This document shows, in pieces, positions 26,702 to 27,888 of a stretch of 64,000 nt of DNA. Position numbers and translations under genes: made by a program. The notes beneath the pieces are model-generated. The model saw only the letters and a list, made by a program, of their open reading frames with translations. It was not told the origin of the DNA and searched no databases. The DNA comes from an uncultured Pelagibacteraceae bacterium (GTDB lineage Bacteria; Pseudomonadota; Alphaproteobacteria; Pelagibacterales; Pelagibacteraceae), in contig CACKXF010000002.1 of the NCBI GenBank assembly GCA_902604065.1, positions 1-64,000 of the forward strand, in the 5' to 3' direction. How positions within the stretch are numbered: position 1 is the first letter of the stretch; every line of letters starts with the position of its first letter.

Positions 26702-27301
26702 ATGCAAGAATTTCCTTTCATGCCAAAAGCCACAGCTGTTTGGTTGGTAGAAAACACAAATTTAACGTTTAAACAAATTGCGAAGTTTTGTAATCTTCAT
26801 GAACTTGAAATTAAAGGAATAGCAGATGGAGATGTGGCAAAAGGAATAAAAGCTTACAACCCAATTTTAGCAGGCCAACTTTCTAGAGAAGAAATTGACG
26901 CTTGCTCCAAAGATCCTGAAAAAAATTTAAATTTAATAAAGAAAGAATCAAATATTCAAATTAAAGAGAGAAAAAAACCTAAGTATACACCTTTGTCAAA
27001 AAGACAAGATAGGCCAGATGCTATTTTATGGTTATGTAAAAATGCACCTGAACTTTCAGACGGTCAAATTTCAAAATTAGTCGGAAGCACTAAAGGAACT
27101 GTTTCTTTAATTAGAAAAAGAAGTTATTGGAACTTTTCTAATCTTAAGCCGAGGGATCCTGTAATACTCTCTTTATGTTCTCAAGAAATTTTTCAAAAAG
27201 CACTTGATAAAGCAAAACGAAGAGTAGAAAGAGAAAAAAAGAGATTATTAAGAGAGGAAAAAAAGCTTAAAAAAGAGAGTCAGCTTCAGCAAACAGATTA
27301 A
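26702..27301 (+). CDS. trcR: DUF1013 family transcriptional regulator (TrcR-like)
   Basis: A 199-residue protein of the alphaproteobacterial DUF1013 family: MPKATAVWLVENTNLTFKQIAKFCNLHELEIKGIADGDVAKGI near the N-terminus, and a second helix-turn-helix-like block (PDAILWLCKNAPELSDGQISKLVGSTKGTVSLIR) in the middle, ending in a Lys/Glu-rich coiled tail. In Caulobacter the homologue TrcR has been described as a cell-cycle transcriptional regulator. rpmE-DUF1013 adjacency is common in the class. Confidence 0.88.
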   Translation: MQEFPFMPKATAVWLVENTNLTFKQIAKFCNLHELEIKGIADGDVAKGIKAYNPILAGQLSREEIDACSKDPEKNLNLIKKESNIQIKERKKPKYTPLSKRQDRPDAILWLCKNAPELSDGQISKLVGSTKGTVSLIRKRSYWNFSNLKPRDPVILSLCSQEIFQKALDKAKRRVEREKKRLLREEKKLKKESQLQQTD

Positions 27302-27320: not shown

Positions 27321-27349
27321 TTTATTGCTATCATATAGACAATTGTAAT
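27321..27349 (+). promoter_or_regulatory. Candidate promoter before rpsU
   Basis: TTTATT (27321-27326) and TGTAAT (27344-27349) are separated by 17 bp, about 40 bp before the rpsU start. Both boxes are imperfect; in AT-rich sequence the match could be chance. It would give rpsU a short leader carrying the strong Shine-Dalgarno. Confidence 0.3.
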
Positions 27350-27377
27350 CTTAAATGTTAACTAGCAAAACAAAAAC

Positions 27378-27384
27378 AGGAGGT
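27378..27384 (+). promoter_or_regulatory. Strong Shine-Dalgarno deciding the rpsU ATT start
   Basis: AGGAGGT is a perfect complement to the 16S anti-Shine-Dalgarno core. It lies 4-5 nt before ATT 27389. It is far stronger than the ribosome-binding sites of nearby genes, most of which have weak or no visible SD. Confidence 0.85.
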
Positions 27385-27388
27385 TGTT

Positions 27389-27583
27389 ATTAAAATAGAC
27401 GTTAAAGACAATAATGTTGAGCAAGCAATAAGGGTTTTGAAAAGAAAACTTCAAAAAGAAGGTTTTTTTAAAGTGATGAAAATGAAAAGTACTTACGAAA
27501 AGCCGTCTGAAAAAAAGAAAAGAATAAAAACTGAAAATTTAAAAAGAATTAAAAAACAGCAAAAACTTAGAAATAGATATTAA
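27389..27583 (+). CDS. rpsU: 30S ribosomal protein S21, probable ATT start codon
   Basis: Absent from the ORF track. The frame encodes a clear bS21: DVKDNNVEQAIRVLKRKLQKEG, then KVMKMKSTYEKPSEKKKR and a basic tail, 64 aa. Upstream in frame, from the TAA at 27359 to the conserved residues, there is no ATG, GTG or TTG; the codons are CTA GCA AAA CAA AAA CAG GAG GTT GTT ATT AAA ATA. ATT at 27389 follows a perfect AGGAGGT by 4-5 nt, so translation would begin (M)KIDVKDNN, which fits the N-terminus of S21 proteins. AUU starts are known for infC, where IF3 uses it for autoregulation; a similar control here is an inference. bS21 helps mRNA-16S pairing during initiation. Confidence 0.92.
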   Translation: MKIDVKDNNVEQAIRVLKRKLQKEGFFKVMKMKSTYEKPSEKKKRIKTENLKRIKKQQKLRNRY

Positions 27584-27603: not shown

Positions 27604-27807
27604 ATGCCTAAAGGAAAAGTAAAGTGGTTCAGCTCAAAGAAAGGTTATGGTTTTATTAGAGAAGAGGAAAAAGATAGAGATATTTTTTTGCATGTTTCAG
27701 CTTTAGAAGAGTCGAAGCTTAGAGTTTTAAAGGAGGACCAAATTCTTAAATTTGACATAAAAGAAGATAAAGAGAAACTCCAAGCAATAAATCTTAAAAA
27801 AGTTTAA
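27604..27807 (+). CDS. Cold-shock domain protein
   Basis: A 67-residue CspA-like protein with RNP1 KKGYGFI and RNP2-like DIFLHVSAL, and a basic-aromatic N-terminus GKVKWFSS. It binds single-stranded nucleic acid and works as an RNA chaperone. A GAAGGA Shine-Dalgarno precedes the ATG. It follows rpsU by 20 bp and ends 4 bp before the initiator tRNA. Whether it is cold induced cannot be told; csp genes are often constitutive in marine oligotrophs. Confidence 0.93.
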   Translation: MPKGKVKWFSSKKGYGFIREEEKDRDIFLHVSALEESKLRVLKEDQILKFDIKEDKEKLQAINLKKV

Positions 27808-27811
27808 TTAT

Positions 27812-27888
<77 letters not shown>

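Follow-up and report, generated by a model that had tools for sequence, protein, structure and literature searches.

The gene for ribosomal protein S21 avoids an AUG start in SAR11 and other Alphaproteobacteria

Where does translation of the ribosomal protein S21 gene (rpsU) begin in a SAR11 genome that offers no conventional start codon, and what might the answer say about how S21 synthesis is controlled? The question was raised by a 64,000-nucleotide stretch of DNA (hereafter, the window) from an uncultured Pelagibacteraceae bacterium (assembly GCA_902604065.1, contig CACKXF010000002.1, positions 1 to 64,000). A preliminary description of this sequence proposed that rpsU starts at AUU behind a perfect Shine-Dalgarno (SD) sequence, that gene callers miss the gene, and that the weak codon could provide autoregulation analogous to that of infC, where it allows IF3 to sense its own level. 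We find that the observation is correct and, if anything, understated. In SAR11, rpsU almost always starts at AUU (or AUA) behind an unusually strong ribosome-binding site, and the same gene avoids AUG across Alphaproteobacteria. This suggests that S21 synthesis is deliberately throttled at the moment of translation initiation. The proposed interpretation is only partly supported.

The rpsU start codon

The window has one rpsU (27389..27583, + strand; stop codon at 27581-27583), encoding the 64-aa protein bS21. It is the only rpsU in the 872-kb assembly. The reading frame is closed by an in-frame TAA (27359-27361), 10 codons upstream of ATT (27389..27391). After the stop, the frame reads CTA GCA AAA CAA AAA CAG GAG GTT GTT ATT AAA ATA GAC GTT AAA GAC. 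There is no in-frame ATG, GTG, or TTG before a TTG at 27437. The SD sequence AGGAGGT (27378..27384) lies 4-5 nt before ATT. Read from ATT, the protein matches the Ribosomal_S21 domain (Pfam PF01165, E = 2.8e-16, 59.4 bits over positions 2-54/55), while initiation at TTG 27437 would delete residues 1-16 of the domain and reduce the score to 32.4 bits. A list of open reading frames (ORFs) restricted to ATG, GTG, and TTG starts yields only a truncated 48-aa ORF here. This list was the only basis on which the claim that gene callers miss rpsU was tested.

The SD is exceptional relative to the rest of the window. Of 65 window ORFs of at least 100 aa, 62 have at most 4 SD-like bases before the first ATG, and the maximum is 6, whereas rpsU has 7. 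A search of the assembly for the 16S anti-SD returned no match.

Conservation and exceptions in SAR11

We examined 45 further species-level genomes of the same genus, which have ATT (42), ATC (2), or ATA (1) at this codon and never ATG, GTG, or TTG, mostly with an in-frame stop only four codons upstream. Including the window, the start is thus ATT, ATC, or ATA (collectively, ATH) in 46 of 46 loci of the genus. At least five SD bases precede 95% of the ATT starts of the genus. In a second family of the order (f2), the codon is ATA in 35 loci and ATC in 1, with AAGGAGG 7 nt upstream. The codon is also conserved in all ten examined ATT loci of four other SAR11 genera (g5-g8). In g5 and g8, the in-frame stop lies one codon upstream (TAG GTT ATT), so that only GTT or ATT could be the start. 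In g7, the sequence is TAA GCA AAT ATT. An order-wide pattern search matched 251 of 297 genomes. Among the rows inspected, every rpsU row shows ATT or, occasionally, ATC or ATA, while a few rows are unrelated chance matches. Conservation in about 100 loci from separate genomes rules out both chance and assembly error. Several SAR11 genomes of 90-99% estimated completeness have no S21 hit, and rpsU may be missing from these assemblies or lost.

The presence of ATG at this codon in related genomes had been named beforehand as a result that would point to an assembly error. A direct search for ATG found it in 11 of 397 genomes of the order, all in one genus. The search pattern fits the reading frame of the family designated f1. 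Family f2 (53 of the 397 genomes) has a different N terminus, and its ATA/ATC start was read directly. All 11 genomes have also lost the SD (e.g., ...TTTAGAAATAAAT ATG) and share the S21 variant NNIEQ, so they mark a lineage switch and not an assembly error. One genome with ATT has NNIEQ with the SD intact, and two genomes with a weakened SD (TTGGGGGTATTT) still have ATT. Thus, the SD and the weak codon behave largely as one unit. Two of the 11 genomes appear to correspond to the model strains Ca. P. ubique HTCC1062 and HTCC7211, which may explain why the unusual start went unnoticed. Our searches of the open-access literature on rpsU with SAR11, its start codon, or its N-terminal peptide found no report of it.

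AUG avoidance across Alphaproteobacteria

In a family-spread sample of 124 other Alphaproteobacteria (excluding eleven loci that could not be parsed), rpsU starts with GTG (57), ATG (22), TTG (19), ATC (12), ATA (7), CTG (5), or ATT (2). ATG therefore accounts for only 18% of starts. SD strength in these taxa is only moderate (mean 5.0 nt for GTG starts). Two registers occur: a start four codons before the V-[KR]-D-N-N motif, or five codons before it, followed by a Val codon. When codon -4 is not ATG, GTG, or TTG, codon -5 is one of ATC, ATA, TTG, CTG, ATG, GTG, or ATT in 39 of 41 loci and never another Leu, Val, or Ile codon. In contrast, the neighboring hydrophobic codon -2 shows the usual mix of GTT, GTA, GTC, and ATT. 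This is the signature of a start codon and not of an internal residue.

Control genes use ATG. Alphaproteobacterial rpsR has a plausible ATG in all 27 parsed genomes, against 22 of 124 for rpsU (Fisher test, P = 9e-17), although an SD-based picker preferred a TTG in two of these. Beta- and gammaproteobacterial rpsU starts with ATG in 21 of 22 cases and TTG in 1 (P = 2e-12). S21 genes in pelagiphages and viral contigs have ATG or TTG wherever a start could be read, and never ATH, so a viral S21 would not carry the start-codon brake of its host.

A promoter-like element and a short predicted leader

We find a conserved promoter-like pair upstream of rpsU. In the window, it comprises a -35-like TAGACA (27336..27341, + strand) and an extended -10-like TGtTAACTA, with its hexamer at 27359..27364. 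TAGACA or TGGACA, a spacer of exactly 17 nt, and TG-N-TAnnnn occur in 44 of 46 loci of the genus, predicting a leader of 16-18 nt in all of those, which begins just before the SD. In the window, the predicted transcription start is at about 27371, and the leader is about 18 nt. A generic consensus scan did not call this promoter, so its identification is a comparative inference only.

Such a leader leaves little room for a structured operator that mimics an rRNA site, as in autoregulation of the S15/L20 type. No Rfam family was detected at the site. A single fold of the 60-nt start region, made without shuffled controls, gave -6.9 kcal/mol. We also considered coupling to an upstream ORF, as many loci have an ATG about 30 nt upstream (aatgATAAC). 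This was rejected because the ATG lies inside the -10-like element and upstream of the predicted transcription start, and its frame varies between loci.

Possible mechanisms

A strong SD combined with the weakest class of start codon, with little space for a leader operator, indicates that control, if any, acts on the initiation event itself. We favor, with moderate confidence, a feedback device in which the strong SD and a start codon other than AUG are a selected pair, ancient in Alphaproteobacteria. In this view, mature 30S subunits carrying bS21 would handle the mRNA badly, because bS21 lies where the SD-antiSD helix must go and IF3 rejects AUU. Subunits still lacking bS21 could form the full helix and hold the mRNA long enough to initiate at the weak codon, so that bS21 would be made when 30S subunits lack it, with IF3 proofreading as the brake. 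Published evidence fits this model. In Flavobacterium johnsoniae, ribosomes lacking bS21 translate strong-SD rpsU better and autoregulate it, and their 30S complexes on rpsU are IF3-independent (PMC9976891). In Escherichia coli, bS21 would clash with the SD helix, and IF3 discriminates against noncanonical codons and too-extended SDs (PMC4611024). Our sequence comparisons establish the start codon, its conservation, the class-wide avoidance of AUG, the joint loss of SD and AUU, and a conserved promoter-like element predicting a short leader. The feedback loop itself is inferred, as are better initiation on rpsU by bS21-less subunits, any response of output to IF3, and the effects of bS21 on alphaproteobacterial 30S subunits. 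Several features fit less well: most Alphaproteobacteria outside SAR11 use GUG or UUG, which IF3 does not reject, some have AUG with a strong SD, and the HTCC1062-type lineage does without the device.

The main alternative is static tuning, whereby the weak codon simply lowers yield, the strong SD partly compensates, and nothing is sensed, as proposed for E. coli pcnB with AUU (PMC1780047). This remains possible, although we consider it less likely than feedback. Compensation predicts that AUG appears exactly where the SD is lost, as in 11 of 11 genomes, and noncanonical starts with extended SDs give roughly 10% of AUG output in Staphylococcus aureus (PMC13009471). However, a conserved promoter-like element, an exceptional SD, and the strongest brake, kept across an order, would be an odd way to set a constant level. 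Furthermore, S21 genes in viral contigs do not use ATH, and bS21 autoregulation through the SD is established in Bacteroidota (PMC9976891). Sensing of IF3 alone, with output following the IF3:30S ratio and bS21 playing no part, seems unlikely. AUU, AUA, AUC, and CUG are IF3-discriminated (PMC4611024), and the GTC start of sigR in Streptomyces shows IF3 control of a gene other than infC (PMC5472188). In addition, infC starts with ATA in most other Alphaproteobacteria and in SAR11 family f2, and apparently with ATA or ATT in genera g7 and g8. Yet infC starts with GTG in SAR11 genera g1 and g6, including this genome and others of its genus, so the classic IF3 loop is not visible here. Moreover, 76 of 124 (61%) non-SAR11 Alphaproteobacteria use GTG or TTG for rpsU.

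The infC-style analogy of the preliminary description is thus only partly supported, and autoregulation is plausible but inferred. The joint occurrence of AUG and SD loss, together with the F. johnsoniae evidence, points at least as much to bS21 sensing its own absence on the 30S subunit as to IF3 level. Initiation elsewhere, at TTG 27437 or at an upstream codon, with ATT as an internal Ile codon, is very unlikely. TTG 27437 is the only canonical in-frame start before the C-terminal half, but its use would cost almost half of the domain score. The stop lies 1-4 codons upstream of ATT in most relatives, and no other near-cognate codon is shared. A homologous ATG sits exactly at this codon in 11 genomes, and the third base is T in 57 of 60 loci, while the neighboring Ile codon 3 is ATA in 55 of 60.

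The rpsU start shares features with several known systems. Like infC of E. coli and others, it is a conserved noncanonical AUH start at a gene involved in translation initiation. It has an IF3-discriminated codon and a good SD, but its product is a structural 30S protein and not the fidelity factor, and GUG, UUG, and CUG are also used in relatives. The F. johnsoniae system involves the same gene, with an exceptionally strong SD compared with other genes of the genome (here, compared with 65 window ORFs only). We found no start-codon element described for that system, whereas a weak codon is added here, and Bacteroidia generally block SD pairing, which SAR11 is not known to do. Streptomyces sigR also combines an extended SD (AGGAGGTG) with a noncanonical codon, but encodes a sigma factor balanced with an anti-sigma factor and involves a single GTC codon (PMC5472188). 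In S. aureus, cvfC1 (AUU) and ccpN (AUA) have conserved noncanonical starts, extended SDs, and lower yield, but are neither ribosomal proteins nor homologous (PMC13009471).

Non-AUG, IF3-rejected starts are known for very few bacterial genes. Here, one is kept in a core ribosomal protein across hundreds of species of one of the most abundant bacterial groups in the ocean, with a class-wide bias away from AUG. This provides a directly testable link between bS21, SD pairing, and start-codon proofreading. It is also a reason to correct annotations, as gene callers that allow only ATG, GTG, and TTG will truncate or miss rpsU. A broader, more tentative reading is that Alphaproteobacteria as a class control bS21 by a start-codon checkpoint. 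Under this reading, rpsU is kept off AUG so that only 30S subunits lacking bS21 (or poorly proofread by IF3) translate it efficiently, making the start codon a sensor of 30S completeness. A SAR11 lineage that includes model strains would then have lost both halves of the device, and viral S21 genes would not carry it. As S21 is the ribosomal protein most often carried by phages (PMC9976891), the finding also bears on how pelagiphages may bypass host control.

Genomic context

Upstream of rpsU, a gene at 26702-27301 encodes a TrcR-family protein (PF06242, 192 bits), annotated as transcriptional cell cycle regulator. Directly downstream lies a cold-shock-domain protein (csp) gene (27604..27807, + strand; PF00313, 75.5 bits), followed by an initiator tRNA-fMet gene (27812..27888, + strand; CAT anticodon, C1:A72, anticodon stem AU/GC/GC) identified with ARAGORN. 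In SAR11 family f1, the initiator tRNA gene follows rpsU in genera g1, g5, g6, and g8. It lies 2-23 nt after the stop in g5, g6, and g8 (sometimes only 2-5 nt), and about 227 nt after it in g1, where a csp gene lies between them. This arrangement suggests a possible rpsU-tRNAfMet transcript. AU/GC/GC initiator tRNAs accompany non-AUG starts in some mycoplasmas, although any relevance to rpsU would be conjectural. In all 66 alphaproteobacterial genomes matched in the class sample, and in the SAR11 loci seen, the anticodon stem of the initiator tRNA is AU/GC/GC (TCAGG...CCTGA), with A29-U41 in place of the first of the three G-C pairs.
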